Origin: Thiovibrio frasassiensis
GTDB taxonomy: Bacteria > Desulfobacterota > Desulfobulbia > Desulfobulbales > Desulfurivibrionaceae
NCBI RefSeq assembly: GCF_029607905.1
Contig: NZ_JAPHEH010000001.1
Span: forward strand, 62,001 to 126,000
DNA length: 64,000 bases
Reading direction: 5' to 3'
Shown here: positions 6,239-31,477 of the stretch, one piece after another
Layout of the letters: every line of letters starts with the position of its first letter
How positions within the stretch are numbered: the first letter of the stretch is position 1
The notes under the pieces: model-generated
The model's database searches: none
Told to the model about the DNA's origin: nothing
Seen by the model: the letters and a program-made list of their open reading frames with translations, nothing else
Program-made: the position numbers and the translations under genes

Positions 6239-6267
6239 GGAACTTTTTAGCCCCTCGGTTGTCTTAA
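6239..6267 (+). promoter_or_regulatory. ECF-type promoter of the sigma/anti-sigma operon
   Basis: GGAACT at 6239-6244 and GTCTTAA at 6261-6267, separated by 16 bases. This fits the RpoE-like (GGAACTT / GTC or TCTGA) promoter class. It lies about 45 bases before the sigma factor start, so the sigma factor probably drives its own operon. A 15-bp palindrome (TTGGCCCTGGGCCAA, 6283-6297) sits between promoter and start codon and could be an operator or a leader hairpin. Confidence 0.65.
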
Positions 6268-6315: not shown

Positions 6316-6876
6316 ATGCCATACCAAGAAGTAGCCGAACTTGTCCGTGCCTTCCGCCAGGGGGAGCAGCAGGCCTTTAACCGGCTGGTGACCCTCTATC
6401 AGAAGAAGATATATAATCTGGCTCTGGGCTATGTAAAACAGGAAGATGAGGCCAAGGATCTCGCGCAGGACATCTTCGTCACGGTCTTCCGCCAGATAGA
6501 CAAACTGAAAGACGAAAGCAAGTTCGGGGCCTGGCTCTACCAACTGGCCCTGAACCACTGCCGGAACCGTTACCAGAAACTGCGCCGCCGGGGTTTTTTC
6601 AGCAATCAGTCCCTTGATGATCCGGACACCGGCTTGCACTTAAGCTCCGGCACCACTCCGGAAAAAGAGTACGAACAGCAAAACACCGTCCGTCTGGTCC
6701 GGGAAGCCATTGCCTCCCTCGCGCCTGCGGAAAAAGAAGTCATTCTTCTCCGTGATCTGCAGGAGCTTTCGTACGAAGAAATCAGTGAGATTCTTGCTCT
6801 GCCCATGGGCACGGTCAAGTCCAAACTAAACCGGGCCCGCCTGGCCTTAAAAAAACGTCTCAAACATCATCTGTAA
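6316..6876 (+). CDS. ECF-family RNA polymerase sigma factor (RpoE-like)
   Basis: 186 aa with only sigma regions 2 and 4, as in group 4 (ECF) factors. Region 2 is seen in AFNRLVTLYQKKIYNLALGY and DEAKDLAQDIFVTVF, region 4 in EKEVILLRDLQELSYEEISEIL and GTVKSKLNRARLAL. The family directs RNA polymerase to stress promoters and is held by a membrane anti-sigma factor. The next gene, 11 bases downstream, encodes exactly such a partner. The ECF-type promoter at 6239 suggests autoregulation, and two more copies of that motif in the window (7721, 31311) are candidate targets. Confidence 0.9.
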   Translation: MPYQEVAELVRAFRQGEQQAFNRLVTLYQKKIYNLALGYVKQEDEAKDLAQDIFVTVFRQIDKLKDESKFGAWLYQLALNHCRNRYQKLRRRGFFSNQSLDDPDTGLHLSSGTTPEKEYEQQNTVRLVREAIASLAPAEKEVILLRDLQELSYEEISEILALPMGTVKSKLNRARLALKKRLKHHL

Positions 6877-6887
6877 TCGGTCCGCCT

Positions 6888-7697
6888 ATGCAATGCACTG
6901 AAGTCCAGCCGCTGTTCACCGAGTTTGCGGACAATACCCTTGCCCGCGAAGAGCTGCGCGCCCTGACCGACCATCTTCTCGGCTGCCCGGTCTGCGCCGT
7001 GGAATGGCAGGAGTTTCAGCAAACCCTCCGCCTCGTGCATAGCCTCGAACCACTGGTTCCCCCAGGCGATCTGCTGCCGGGCATCCACGCAAAGCTGGCA
7101 AAAAAAGGTATCTTCTATCGGGCCTGGACTTTTATCGATGCTCTGAATTTTTCCCTATCAATCCCCGCCGCCGCTGCCATATTCACCATTGCCATGCTCG
7201 GAGGATTCATGCTCACCTCCTCGCCCTTGCAGCAAACAAACATCTTCCCATCGCCTTTAGCCCGGACCTCCTCCTTACCGCAAGGAGAGATTCTCGCCAC
7301 CAGACGACCAGCGCTTGCCCCGAATCTCATGTTTGCCGTCTCTCATAATGAAGCGCGCCTGAGCGGAGATCTGGAGCCGCTTGCCCGGACACCCCTGACG
7401 ACCCACCCGGCTCCCGACAATCATGCCCGCCGCCTGTTATCCCCGGACCTGCATGTACTCATCAAGGATATCGATCGCGACAGCCGGATCACACTCTGCC
7501 GAGAGATGTTGCACCGGAACTGGCAGCTCCATCGCGTCAGTGCCAGCCTGTTCCTCGTCCATCTCCCCCAGTCCGAACTGAGAGATTTCCATAACCTCAT
7601 CGGCCACCACCATTTCGTCCTGGTCCCTGCCGCAGCGGGGGAAACACGATTCGGGAACGAGAAGCAGATATTGACCGCTGCCATCCGCTTTCAATAA
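6888..7697 (+). CDS. Zinc-finger anti-sigma factor
   Basis: 269 aa. The N-terminus contains the ZAS signature H-x3-C-x2-C (His29, Cys33, Cys36 in DHLLGCPVC), which binds zinc and clamps the sigma factor. One membrane helix follows near residues 88-112 (SIPAAAAIFTIAMLGGFML), and the rest would be periplasmic. This is the usual single-pass anti-sigma arrangement, where an envelope signal leads to proteolysis and sigma release. It directly follows the sigma gene and no doubt shares its transcript. The periplasmic domain matches no family I know, so the inducing signal is unknown. Confidence 0.85.
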   Translation: MQCTEVQPLFTEFADNTLAREELRALTDHLLGCPVCAVEWQEFQQTLRLVHSLEPLVPPGDLLPGIHAKLAKKGIFYRAWTFIDALNFSLSIPAAAAIFTIAMLGGFMLTSSPLQQTNIFPSPLARTSSLPQGEILATRRPALAPNLMFAVSHNEARLSGDLEPLARTPLTTHPAPDNHARRLLSPDLHVLIKDIDRDSRITLCREMLHRNWQLHRVSASLFLVHLPQSELRDFHNLIGHHHFVLVPAAAGETRFGNEKQILTAAIRFQ

Positions 7698-7720: not shown

Positions 7721-7749
7721 GGAACTTTTACAAAGCAGACCGTGTCTTT
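7721..7749 (+). promoter_or_regulatory. Second ECF-type promoter, in front of a putative small RNA
   Basis: GGAACT at 7721-7726 and GTCTTTC at 7743-7749, spaced by 16 bases as at 6239. It starts 24 bases after the anti-sigma stop codon. The only thing it can drive before the terminator at 7819 is a short transcript of about 105 bases. Confidence 0.6.
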
Positions 7750-7754
7750 CTTTT

Positions 7755-7860
7755 TATGATGCGCATCCTCCAAGCATCTCTTCTTCCTTTCCCTTCTTCC
7801 CCAGAAGGGCGTGTCCCTGGGACCGCAGAGCCCCCCTCGCTCCTGCGGTCCCGTTTTTTT
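7755..7860 (+). ncRNA. Putative ECF-sigma-dependent small RNA 1
   Basis: Predicted from a promoter at 7721-7749 and an intrinsic terminator ending near 7860; the start (about 7755) is estimated from the -10 element. There is no convincing reading frame. After a short lead the RNA has a C/U-rich stretch (7775-7790, CATCTCTTCTTCC-type), then a 7-bp hairpin (7791-7797 with 7803-7809) whose loop is TCCCC, then the terminator hairpin. C-rich loops and CCTCC (7777-7781) are complementary to Shine-Dalgarno sequences, the usual seed of repressor RNAs. Inference only; no homologue search was possible. Confidence 0.5.
7819..7860 (+). terminator. Intrinsic terminator
   Basis: GGGACCGCAG (7819-7828) pairs perfectly with CTGCGGTCCC (7843-7852) around a 14-base loop and is followed by GTTTTTTT. 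It ends the sigma/anti-sigma transcript and the predicted small RNA, and separates both from htrA. Confidence 0.85.
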
Positions 7861-8021
7861 TCTCAATACGGTCGCACACCCCGGGCTTGACATCCAGAAA
7901 AAGAGATATACACAATAACACAGACGTACAAGAATGACTGATTACTCAGAGGCATGGCAACTTGTCCAACTCCACCCCTATGCAACATGCTTATCTTGTC
8001 CAACACCTCAAGGAGCACACT

Positions 8022-9473
8022 ATGATTTCCCCTGTACCGACCTTCCCGCGCCGCCATCCAGCCCCAATTTTATTGGCCTTCCTGCTCATGGGACTCCTTC
8101 TCGCGACACTGCCAGGCTTAACCTGGGCAGTGAGCAACGCCCCGGCCACCTTTGCCGATCTGGCGGACAAACTCAGCCCCACCGTGGTCAATATCTATAC
8201 CACCCAAACGGTTAAGGCCTCCCGCTCCCCCCATGACATGTTCAACGGGCAGGATATCCCCGAGCCCTTCCGCCGTTTTTTCGGCCTTCCCTCTCCCAAT
8301 GAACAGGATCAGCCCCAGCGGGAACAGAAACGGACCAGCCTCGGTTCCGGGGTGATCATCTCCAAGGATGGCTATATTGTTACCAACAACCATGTCGTAG
8401 AAAACGCCGACAGCATCAATGTGCGGTTGACCAACTTCGAGGAATACGACGCCAAGATCATCGGCCGCGACCCGAAAACAGACCTTGCCCTGCTCAAGAT
8501 CGCGCCCAAAAATGGCTTGCCGGCAATCGCCTTCGGCGATTCGGACAAATTGCGGGTGGGTGACTGGGTCATGGCCATCGGCAACCCCTTCGGCTTTGAG
8601 CAGACCGTTACCGCCGGAATTGTCAGCGGCAAGGGACGTTCCCTGGGCAGCGGCCCCTATGAAAATTTCATTCAGACAGATGCCTCCATCAATCCGGGCA
8701 ATTCCGGCGGTCCCCTTTACAATCTCATGGGCGAGATGGTCGGAATCAACACCGCCATCTATAGCCGCAGTGGCGGCAACATCGGCATCGGCTTCGCCAT
8801 CCCGGCCAACATGGCAAAAAATGTAATCAACCAACTCAAAGAACATGGTACTGTGGTGCGCGGCTGGCTCGGGGTGATGATCCAGCCCGTGACCCCGGAA
8901 CTCGCCGCCCAGTTCAAACTTGAGCGGCCGATCGGCGCCCTGGTGGGCGAGGTTTCCCCGGGAAGTCCGGCGGAGAAGGCCGGCATTAAAGCCGGCGATG
9001 TCATTGTCGAATTCAACGGCAAGGAAATCAGCCAGATGAGCATGCTGCCGAATCTGGTGGCGGAAACTCCGGTGGGAGGCAAAGCGGATATCACTCTGTA
9101 CCGGAAGGGCATACTGAAAAAAATCCCCGTAATCATTGCCAAGCTCAACGAAGAACAGCTTGCCGCAAGCGAACAAGCCGACAGCCTCAACAAGAGCCTG
9201 GGGCTGGAGGTGCAGGACCTCACCCCGGAGATTGCCGCGGCCCTGGGCATCACCGACAAGCACGGGGTCCTGGTAACCGGGGTTGAACCCTACTCGCCTG
9301 CGGCTTACGCAGGTCTGCGCAAGGGAGACCTGATCCTTGAGGTCAACCAAAAACCTGTCCGGGATGTGAAGGACCTCCTCAATGAACTCAAGGGAAAAAA
9401 GGCAAAATCAACGGTTTCATTTTTTATCAAGCGTGATGGCCGCACCAGATTTTTGGGTCTCAGACTCAAATAA
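8022..9473 (+). CDS. htrA: Periplasmic serine protease/chaperone, Do (DegP/HtrA) family
   Basis: Degrades or refolds damaged envelope proteins. The ATG at 8022 has a strong ribosome-binding site (AAGGAGCACACT) and opens a signal peptide ending near TWA. The catalytic triad is His124 (NNHVV), Asp154 (TDLALLK) and Ser228 (GNSGGP). Two PDZ domains follow, at about 275-365 and 385-480. Length (483 aa) is typical. It lies just downstream of the ECF sigma operon, which suits an envelope-stress role, but a terminator separates them and no ECF motif lies directly before it. A TTGACA at 7887 has no clear -10 partner. Confidence 0.93.
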   Translation: MISPVPTFPRRHPAPILLAFLLMGLLLATLPGLTWAVSNAPATFADLADKLSPTVVNIYTTQTVKASRSPHDMFNGQDIPEPFRRFFGLPSPNEQDQPQREQKRTSLGSGVIISKDGYIVTNNHVVENADSINVRLTNFEEYDAKIIGRDPKTDLALLKIAPKNGLPAIAFGDSDKLRVGDWVMAIGNPFGFEQTVTAGIVSGKGRSLGSGPYENFIQTDASINPGNSGGPLYNLMGEMVGINTAIYSRSGGNIGIGFAIPANMAKNVINQLKEHGTVVRGWLGVMIQPVTPELAAQFKLERPIGALVGEVSPGSPAEKAGIKAGDVIVEFNGKEISQMSMLPNLVAETPVGGKADITLYRKGILKKIPVIIAKLNEEQLAASEQADSLNKSLGLEVQDLTPEIAAALGITDKHGVLVTGVEPYSPAAYAGLRKGDLILEVNQKPVRDVKDLLNELKGKKAKSTVSFFIKRDGRTRFLGLRLK

Positions 9474-9503: not shown

Positions 9504-10262
9504 ATGAAAAGATTAAATGGTTTCGGAAAGCGTCTGGGTTGCTTTGCCGCCCTGCTGAGCATGCTCAGCCTAGCCAGCGGCTGCACCTACCAGGACCGGG
9601 TCGCCCCGCTCAACTTGCCGGATGCCAAAAATGGCGGCATCGTGGTGGGCGATGGCCTCAAGATTTCCGCCCTGGCTTTCAGCAGCGATGAAGCGGCCAA
9701 GCAGGCCTTCGGCTTTGGCGCGCGCAATGCCGGCCTGCTGCCCGTGCAGCTTACCCTGCAAAACGACAGCCCGGAGAAGGTGAAACTCAACCCCGAGCAG
9801 ACCTTCCTGATCGATAACAACAACCGGGCCTGGCCGATTCTCTCGCTGGAAAAAACCTATCAGCGGACTTCAGGGCATGTCGATCTTGGAGAAACAGCCA
9901 AAGGCGCGGCAAAACCGTCGTTGCTCATGGGCGCGGCCGGAGCACTGGCCGGACTGGCCGTAGGGGTGGTTACCGGCAAGAACGTCGGCGAGGCAATGGG
10001 AACCGGCGCCGTGCTTGGTGCGGCCGGAGGTGCGATTATCGGGGGAGCCAAGAGTTACAGCGAGAGCGGAGAAAAAATCAAGGATGACCTTGCCTCCAAA
10101 AGCCTCAGGAACCAGACGATCCTGCCGAACCAGATCGCTTACGGGGTTCTGTTCTTTCCGGGAATGCCGGGGGAAGAAGCGGATGGAGTAAAAGAGTTGC
10201 GGCTTTCGCTGACCATCGGCAATACGCCGCAGGTGGTCACCCTCTTTCCGGCAACCAAATAA
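9504..10262 (+). CDS. Lipoprotein with glycine-zipper segment
   Basis: 252 aa. The signal peptide ends in a lipobox (LASGC), so the protein is probably lipid-anchored at Cys27. The middle of the protein looks like a small beta domain that may bind a partner (KVKLNPEQTFLIDNNNRAW). A glycine/alanine-rich hydrophobic segment (residues about 136-180, with repeated GxxxG and GAxGG) resembles glycine zippers of outer-membrane lipoproteins such as the SlyB/OmpA-like groups. It follows htrA by 30 bases and may be co-transcribed with it, which suggests an envelope role. The exact function is unknown. Confidence 0.75.
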   Translation: MKRLNGFGKRLGCFAALLSMLSLASGCTYQDRVAPLNLPDAKNGGIVVGDGLKISALAFSSDEAAKQAFGFGARNAGLLPVQLTLQNDSPEKVKLNPEQTFLIDNNNRAWPILSLEKTYQRTSGHVDLGETAKGAAKPSLLMGAAGALAGLAVGVVTGKNVGEAMGTGAVLGAAGGAIIGGAKSYSESGEKIKDDLASKSLRNQTILPNQIAYGVLFFPGMPGEEADGVKELRLSLTIGNTPQVVTLFPATK

Positions 10263-31310: not shown

Positions 31311-31338
31311 GGAACTTTTACAGCGAAGAGAGGTCTTC
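31311..31338 (+). promoter_or_regulatory. Third ECF-type promoter, in front of a second putative small RNA
   Basis: GGAACT (31311-31316) and GTCTTC (31333-31338) separated by 16 bases. The stretch GGAACTTTTACA is identical to that at 7721. It starts 20 bases after the chemoreceptor stop codon. Confidence 0.6.
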
Positions 31339-31344
31339 ATACCA

Positions 31345-31477
31345 TAGGCAACGTGAAAGACTAAAACCCCCCTCCCTTGGGTTTCTTCACTTTGTTTGTT
31401 TTCTCCCTCTCCTCCTCGCCGCCACAAGCGGCATCTAGAGGCCATTTCCATCCTTTCGGAAATGGCCTCTTTTTTTT
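31345..31477 (+). ncRNA. Putative ECF-sigma-dependent small RNA 2
   Basis: Predicted from the promoter at 31311-31338 and the strong terminator ending at 31477; the 5' end is estimated. Within about 133 bases there is a hairpin AAACCC/GGGTTT (31364-31369 with 31379-31384) with the loop CCCTCCCTT, then a C/U-rich single-stranded part (TTCTCCCTCTCCTCCTCGCC, 31401-31420), a 5-bp hairpin (31418-31432) and the terminator. CTCCT and CCTCC are complementary to ribosome-binding sites. No credible reading frame is present. The region between the two chemoreceptor genes holds nothing else I can name. Confidence 0.5.
31438..31477 (+). terminator. Intrinsic terminator
   Basis: GAGGCCATTTCC (31438-31449) pairs perfectly with GGAAATGGCCTC (31458-31469) around an 8-base loop and is followed by eight Ts. 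It ends the first chemoreceptor transcript and the predicted small RNA 2. Confidence 0.92.

Follow-up and report, generated by a model that had tools for sequence, protein, structure and literature searches.

A conserved small RNA gene, probably sigma-driven, between an anti-sigma factor gene and htrA in Thiovibrio frasassiensis

In a 64,000-nucleotide stretch of Thiovibrio frasassiensis DNA (the window), positions 7752-7861 are best explained as a stand-alone small RNA gene, small RNA 1, which would be driven by the neighbouring ECF sigma factor, would act by anti-Shine-Dalgarno pairing and would have a second RNA, small RNA 2, as its partner; we consider this combined reading likely. At the level of comparative sequence, the gene, its structure, the conservation of its promoter and its occurrence without htrA in some relatives are established. 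Judged from these comparisons, small RNA 1 is a real, conserved RNA gene and very probably one that depends on the sigma factor.

Anatomy and covariation of small RNA 1

The window carries, in order, an ECF sigma factor gene, a zf-HC2 anti-sigma factor gene, a 324-base intergenic region and htrA (Table 1). Among equivalog models the sigma protein matched SigW and RpoE best, reaching the cut-off of neither, and the anti-sigma protein scored below the cut-off of the NCBIfam anti-sigma model. A lipoprotein-like gene at 9504-10262, 3' of htrA, showed a weak TagQ match below cut-off and a purine-rich ribosome-binding site; in the crude target scan described below, it came 21st among 63 genes.

Table 1. 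Coordinates of the sigma operon, the two small RNAs and neighbouring features in the window
Feature	Position	Strand	Basis
ECF-type promoter of sigma operon, GGAACTTTT-N-TGTCT	6239..6264	+	motif match
ECF sigma factor gene	6316..6876	+	ECF superfamily model above cut-off
Anti-sigma factor gene, N-terminal zf-HC2 domain	6888..7697	+	Pfam above cut-off
ECF-type promoter of small RNA 1	7721..7747	+	motif and conservation in relatives
Small RNA 1	7752..7861	+	5' end inferred; 3' end taken as the T-run
Hairpin 1, GATGC / GCATC	7758..7778	+	double changes at 5/5 pairs (28 rows), 3/5 (25 rows)
Single-stranded pyrimidine linker, putative seed	7779..7790	+	base composition over 28 members
Hairpin 2, CCCTTCT / AGAAGGG, TCCCC loop	7791..7809	+	double changes at 7/7 pairs (28 and 25 rows)
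Intrinsic terminator hairpin, C-rich loop, T-run	7819..7861	+	double changes at 10/12 pairs (28 rows), 7/12 (25 rows)
Sigma-70-like promoter of htrA, separate	7887..7916	+	consensus scanner; recognisable by eye in genus loci
htrA, Do-family serine endopeptidase	8022..9473	+	protein model search
ECF-type promoter of small RNA 2	31311..31336	+	relaxed scan; genus alignment; 4 homologues beyond genus
Small RNA 2, between two chemoreceptor genes	31341..31477	+	z = -7.06; genus alignment

A preliminary description of this DNA had proposed that an ECF promoter and a perfect 10-bp terminator with a T-run enclose a small RNA without a reading frame. Both signals were confirmed. The promoter (7721-7747) consists of GGAACTTTT at 7721-7729 and TGTCT at 7743-7747, and together with the terminator (7819-7861) it encloses about 105 bases. 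The terminator has a perfect 10-bp stem (7819-7828 / 7843-7852) with a 14-base C-rich loop, followed by a G and eight T (7854-7861); it was missed by the consensus terminator scanner, whose loop limit is 8. When 7752-7861 was folded alone, three hairpins were obtained at -40.3 kcal/mol (z = -5.86, 200 dinucleotide shuffles). The opposite strand folded well too (z = -4.59); the strand was assigned by the promoter, the T-run and the relatives. All of the 24 sequences that were folded singly gave three successive hairpins with the terminator last. The TCCCC loop (7798-7802), the C/U-rich linker (7779-7790) and the CCTCC motif that had been pointed out earlier were all present, the last of them within the hairpin-1 loop.

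The claim that no reading frame lies here did not hold literally. An ATG at 7759, in hairpin 1, opens a 43-codon plus-strand frame that reads through the terminator, and on the minus strand the RNA is overlapped by two ORFs, of 55 and 98 codons. A small protein or a dual-function RNA read from this ATG would fit the open frame in the window, the presence of an ATG in the first 25 bases of 24 of the 28 members, and the first residues MRI common to many genus members. Across these 28 members, however, the plus-strand frame was not conserved: indels in the linker shift it between close relatives, its length varies from 2 to 74 codons, no Shine-Dalgarno sequence precedes the ATG, and 4 of the 28 have no ATG there. 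We regard a protein product as highly improbable.

Covariation was counted in an alignment of 28 sequences, in which 22 of 24 pairs were doubly changed, with 102 cells compared with 18.9 +/- 3.7 after shuffling and 11-29 in slid-partner controls; 96.6% of cells pair. The sequences had been aligned to fit the structure, and hairpin 1 looks forced in three rows (L026, L074 and L075). Without these three (25 rows), 17 of 24 pairs remained (3 in hairpin 1, 7 in hairpin 2 and 7 in the terminator), with 72 cells compared with 11.6 after shuffling (highest of 500, 21); when L180 and L183 were removed as well, 14 of 24 pairs and 54 cells remained, compared with 9.2 after shuffling. Two sequences were excluded before the 28-row count, L006 because its 5' part is missing and L021 because of a poor fit, its hairpins 2 and 3 abutting; both had been included in an earlier alignment, and L073 stands in for L022, which comes from the same genome. 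Unfitted alignments gave less support, with 5 of 19 pairs doubly changed in 10 sequences (4 in the terminator, 1 in hairpin 2 and 0 in hairpin 1) and 1 of 25 pairs in 14 close sequences, and plain MAFFT alignment of 24 sequences recovered hairpin 2 and the terminator in part and nothing else of the structure. The remaking of hairpin 2 in distant members, with GGAACC/GGTTCC instead of CCTTC/GAAGG, was seen directly. The recount cut the numbers and left the conclusion unchanged; all three helices are backed by covariation. The position of the element, directly 3' of the anti-sigma gene, is what would be expected of a plain sigma-operon terminator accompanied by a promoter-like site that arose by chance, but hairpins 1 and 2 covary, and the promoter and the covarying hairpins are conserved jointly across families; we give this explanation almost no weight.

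Promoter conservation and occurrence among relatives

The promoters of small RNA 1 and of the sigma gene are near-identical. A genome search (2.84 Mb) with the strict pattern GGAACTTTT-N12-17-TGTC yielded 3 sites, compared with 1 for a reversed-pattern control, and the three lie 5' of the sigma gene, 5' of small RNA 1 and 5' of a TPR-protein gene. When relatives were read by eye, the motif stood 5' of the sigma gene in all 27 distinct loci with sequence there, a count that omits 3 loci cut by contig ends. Of 25 RNA-bearing loci, 24 have it 5' of the RNA, and the one that does not (L006) has lost its 5' part; it was present in none of the 5 RNA-lacking anti-sigma loci, in which the intergenic stretch was examined. 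In the named locus set, a second ECF promoter was detected by pattern in 22/24 RNA-bearing loci compared with 1/26 RNA-lacking loci, 3 of the latter (L153, L162 and L169) stopping less than 1,700 bases from the sigma start. The two pattern-negative RNA-bearing loci either have no 5' part (L149) or carry a GGAACCC variant (L190, taken as the same locus as L021). The relaxed pattern was not specific alone, with 8 sites in the T. frasassiensis genome compared with 18 in the control, and 97 compared with 98 for the reversed control in 17 genus genomes. Since relaxed motifs are noisy, we take the conserved position of the promoter, rather than the motif by itself, as the evidence.

A search for the anti-sigma gene was positive in 37 of 58 genomes, T. 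frasassiensis included, and 30 distinct loci were examined. Of these 30, which again include the T. frasassiensis locus, 25 carry the RNA in the same position, and they span several families of the order Desulfobulbales; the five without it were L005, L017, L023, L025 and L030, of which L005 meets a contig end 168 bases past the anti-sigma match. The small RNA claim, which had been tied to conservation of the sequence in relatives that keep the sigma operon, was borne out by this retention and by the covarying structure. Among 79 loci found by the sigma protein, which largely share assemblies with the anti-sigma set so that the counts are not independent, 50 were orthologues (57-94% identity), and 24 of these carry the RNA, among them L163, a Desulfurivibrio sp. 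locus. The other 29, unrelated ECF loci (33-43% identity), gave no credible RNA match, that of L222 (E 0.075) being on the opposite strand. One further locus, L168, with a match at E 0.043 in the expected place and a promoter absent by pattern, was left uncounted. Because the RNA is absent by model in 26 of the 50 orthologue loci, the sigma factor can manage without it.

Usually one model match was obtained per genome, with two in G035 (on two contigs) and two in G027 (weak). When a model search covered over 40 genomes, its filters were stricter, so that weak members may be missed; in a search of this kind through 242 genomes of the order, a broader model matched 29 at E <= 0.001, including G027 and G212, whose matches are probably due to chance. 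A phylum-wide model search of 395 genomes gave 7 matches, 4 of them in the same family, and nothing convincing beyond the family; the other 3 (E 1e-4 to 1e-3), with nothing matching sigma, anti-sigma or htrA in their vicinity, were treated as chance. Plasmid and phage collections gave no match.

Two relatives showed unusual arrangements. L074:1179-1620 carries two near-duplicate copies of the RNA in tandem, each with an ECF-like promoter; the pair lies next to an adenylate kinase gene, and the 2.8 kb examined gave no match to sigma, anti-sigma or htrA; the model reported one copy, and the other, whose hairpin 2 is imperfect, was seen by eye. At L021:3185-3823, 3' of the RNA where htrA is expected, a frame was found that by eye resembles a group II intron reverse transcriptase.

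A different role for the element would be that of a cis-acting leader or attenuator of htrA, with a sigma-dependent start near 7752 and a terminator that is conditionally read through. An htrA match comes next in 24 of 25 RNA-bearing loci; FoxJ of Fusobacterium was initially annotated as a 5' UTR (PMC11005410); and one RNA-lacking locus, L191, has an ECF-like promoter 3' of the sigma operon. This promoter, at about +1376 from the sigma start and the sole one of its kind among the RNA-lacking named loci, reflects either loss of the RNA or a following gene that the sigma factor controls directly. On the other hand, htrA has its own sigma-70-like promoter 3' of the terminator, no competing antiterminator was present in the minimum-energy folds (the folds that were inspected), and small RNA 2 is unconnected to htrA. 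The L021 locus has no htrA match within the stretch examined, and the L074 copies adjoin adenylate kinase. A trans-acting RNA is favoured over an htrA leader by the L074 copies and L021, which have no htrA match in the stretches examined, and by the separate htrA promoter; we consider the leader unlikely.

Small RNA 2 and other regulon candidates

The relaxed promoter scan of the T. frasassiensis genome led to position 31311 of the window, where small RNA 2 is composed of a hairpin with a CCCTCCC loop, a C/U linker (31400-31417), a small hairpin and a terminator; the genes flanking it carry MCPsignal. By DNA similarity it was present in 14 of 17 genus genomes, with an internal deletion in L092, and its promoter is conserved across the genus alignment of 14 loci. 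In G011 (L142) a contig stops 39 bases into the RNA, with the promoter still on it, which brings the RNA or a remnant of it to 15 of 17. Covariation within the genus was seen at 0 of 25 pairs, in helices that vary little there. A promoter-free covariance model recovered homologues in 4 family genomes beyond the genus (E <= 1e-4), and all four have an ECF promoter at the correct distance; no other independent evidence speaks as strongly for one sigma factor serving both RNAs. Weaker matches (L241, L245 and L248; E 0.003-0.016) were without a promoter. Two genomes, G008 and G014, kept small RNA 2, and small RNA 1 was not found in them. The small RNA 1 models did not report small RNA 2 in the T. 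frasassiensis genome, so homology of the two RNAs is unsupported.

In the relaxed scan of the genus, 18 of 19 stretches had a site and were read. Five with sites common to two or three genomes (L125-L129) were rejected as regulon members; they sit within long open frames. An ECF-like motif lies about 40 bases 5' of the same open frame in L131 (G004) and L132 (G002), a possible regulon member, and a further ECF-like site lies 5' of a frame in one genome (L130). In L062:1501-2245 (G000:C1:2433033 onward), the ECF motif is about 100 bases 5' of a gene for a TPR-repeat protein (Pfam), and the same arrangement was also read in G002, G004, G010 and G015. The candidates kept for the regulon are the sigma operon, small RNA 1, small RNA 2 and the TPR gene.

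Pairing character and comparison with known systems

Over the 28 members of small RNA 1, the linker is 93% C+U and 1% G, the hairpin-2 loop is 96% C+U with G absent, and the terminator loop carries CCC, CTCC or CCTC in 27. Most members have C-rich loops in hairpins 2 and 3, and less so in hairpin 1. The sequence CCTCCTT, the anti-Shine-Dalgarno core of 16S rRNA, lies within the RNA of 4 of the 28 (L031, L052, L073 and L075). The anti-Shine-Dalgarno character proposed in the preliminary description is backed by comparative data. The linker sequence varies within the genus, so no single fixed seed-target duplex is conserved. A target scan of 63 crudely called window genes placed doubtful gene calls on top and gave no discrimination; sigma ranked 36, htrA 52 and anti-sigma 59.

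Neither Hfq (PF17209; positive control, 5 of 14 known genomes) nor ProQ (PF04352; positive control, 1 of 14) was found in 38 genomes, T. frasassiensis included; as genome completeness is 60-100%, this absence rests on the number of genomes. Such an absence, together with repeated C-rich loops that could serve as protein sites, would fit a sponge RNA that titrates some other protein rather than a base-pairing regulator. The loops and linker are, however, complementary in type to Shine-Dalgarno sequences, and they resemble those of the experimentally tested base-pairing RNAs sX13, GsrN and FoxJ; a sponge seems to us quite improbable.

From the anatomy of the RNA and from tested analogues, we infer a base-pairing mode of action, with transcription, sigma dependence, pairing, repression and envelope targets as its steps. 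The zinc-finger anti-sigma factor would release the ECF (sigma-E-like) factor encoded just upstream, and the freed factor would transcribe its own operon and small RNA 1 from the near-identical promoters. Small RNA 1 would stop at its own terminator, with htrA retaining its separate promoter. The exposed C/U linker and the C-rich loops would then pair with purine-rich Shine-Dalgarno regions, and translation of envelope-protein mRNAs would be repressed, most likely without Hfq; small RNA 2, of the same design and with the same promoter type, would work as a partner. On the best reading, drawn by analogy, the two C-rich RNAs may form a non-coding arm of the envelope stress response that is probably Hfq-independent. 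A bolder version, which we hold to be doubtful, is that of a sigma factor with RNA as its output: beyond its own operon and one TPR protein, its regulon would consist of two independently evolved small RNAs. Under envelope stress these would mimic the 16S rRNA 3' end and so dampen translation wherever Shine-Dalgarno sites are strong, and they would do so in a lineage where neither Hfq nor ProQ is detectable.

Neither the window nor 14 related loci reached the gathering score of any Rfam 15 family. Sub-threshold matches were mainly to small RNAs with C/U motifs (sX13, ar14, CcsR1 and a betaproteobacterial toxic sRNA); an opposite-strand match to the ylbH leader was of similar size (30.7 bits), so composition alone can yield such scores. 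Small RNA 1 scored 20.2 bits with sX13 (RF02232; E 0.12, gathering score 50). The ar14 model (RF02344; gathering score 58.8) gave 37.9 bits for small RNA 2, 30.6 bits for L240 and 33.6 bits for L074, and was not listed for small RNA 1 in the window up to E 5. CcsR1 (RF02791; gathering score 65.3) gave 28.3 bits for L239 and 25.1 bits for L074. Both ar14 and CcsR1 have a CCUCC-type loop motif in common with the RNAs described here. In the open-licence literature, no sRNA work was found for Desulfobacterota, Desulfobulbaceae, Desulfobulbales or Desulfurivibrio.

The analogy with RybB and MicA, drawn in the preliminary description, stood as to logic, a sigma factor making RNAs, and failed as to machinery. 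The enterobacterial RNAs RybB, MicA and MicL act with Hfq, whereas Hfq was not found in the 38 relatives here. These RNAs are the non-coding arm of the sigma-E envelope stress response, which is the likeness. Small RNA 1, mostly structured and with C-rich loops, is closer to sX13, GsrN and FoxJ than to RybB or MicA.

The sX13 RNA of Xanthomonas has three stem-loops with C-rich loops, as small RNA 1 also has, and is active without Hfq; it differs in sitting at the polA locus (PMC3771888). GsrN of Caulobacter depends on sigma-T, an ECF-type (EcfG) sigma factor; it uses a C-rich loop to pair with the G-rich leader of an mRNA, and its homologues are typically near the sigma locus (PMC5869019). It shares a C-rich loop, a location near the sigma locus and, probably, ECF-type sigma control with small RNA 1, but belongs to a general stress system, raises katG expression and has its processing affected by Hfq (PMC5869019). 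Homology of GsrN to the present RNAs was compared through Rfam scans only.

FoxI and FoxJ are sigma-E-dependent small RNAs of Fusobacterium nucleatum whose promoters align with the rpoE promoter; the C-stretch seed lies in a loop in FoxJ and in a linear stretch in FoxI, and the bacterium is reportedly without Hfq and ProQ (PMC11005410). The likeness, by description and not by sequence, is that of two small RNAs with promoters like that of the sigma gene, with C-rich seeds (putative here) and with no Hfq or ProQ found. They differ in belonging to another phylum, in the position of foxJ 5' of ylmH and away from the sigma operon, and in functions that were experimentally tested, whereas here function is read from sequence.

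The present data add two RNA families without a gathering-score match in Rfam 15 and extend the logic of a sigma factor plus small RNAs to the Desulfobulbales, and the promoter pair, the covariance models and the mostly single-copy loci make the system directly testable. Taken with Fusobacterium, the analogy suggests that a non-coding arm of the sigma-E response may arise repeatedly and that Hfq would not be needed for it. In function, the nearest cases appear to be FoxI/FoxJ and GsrN.
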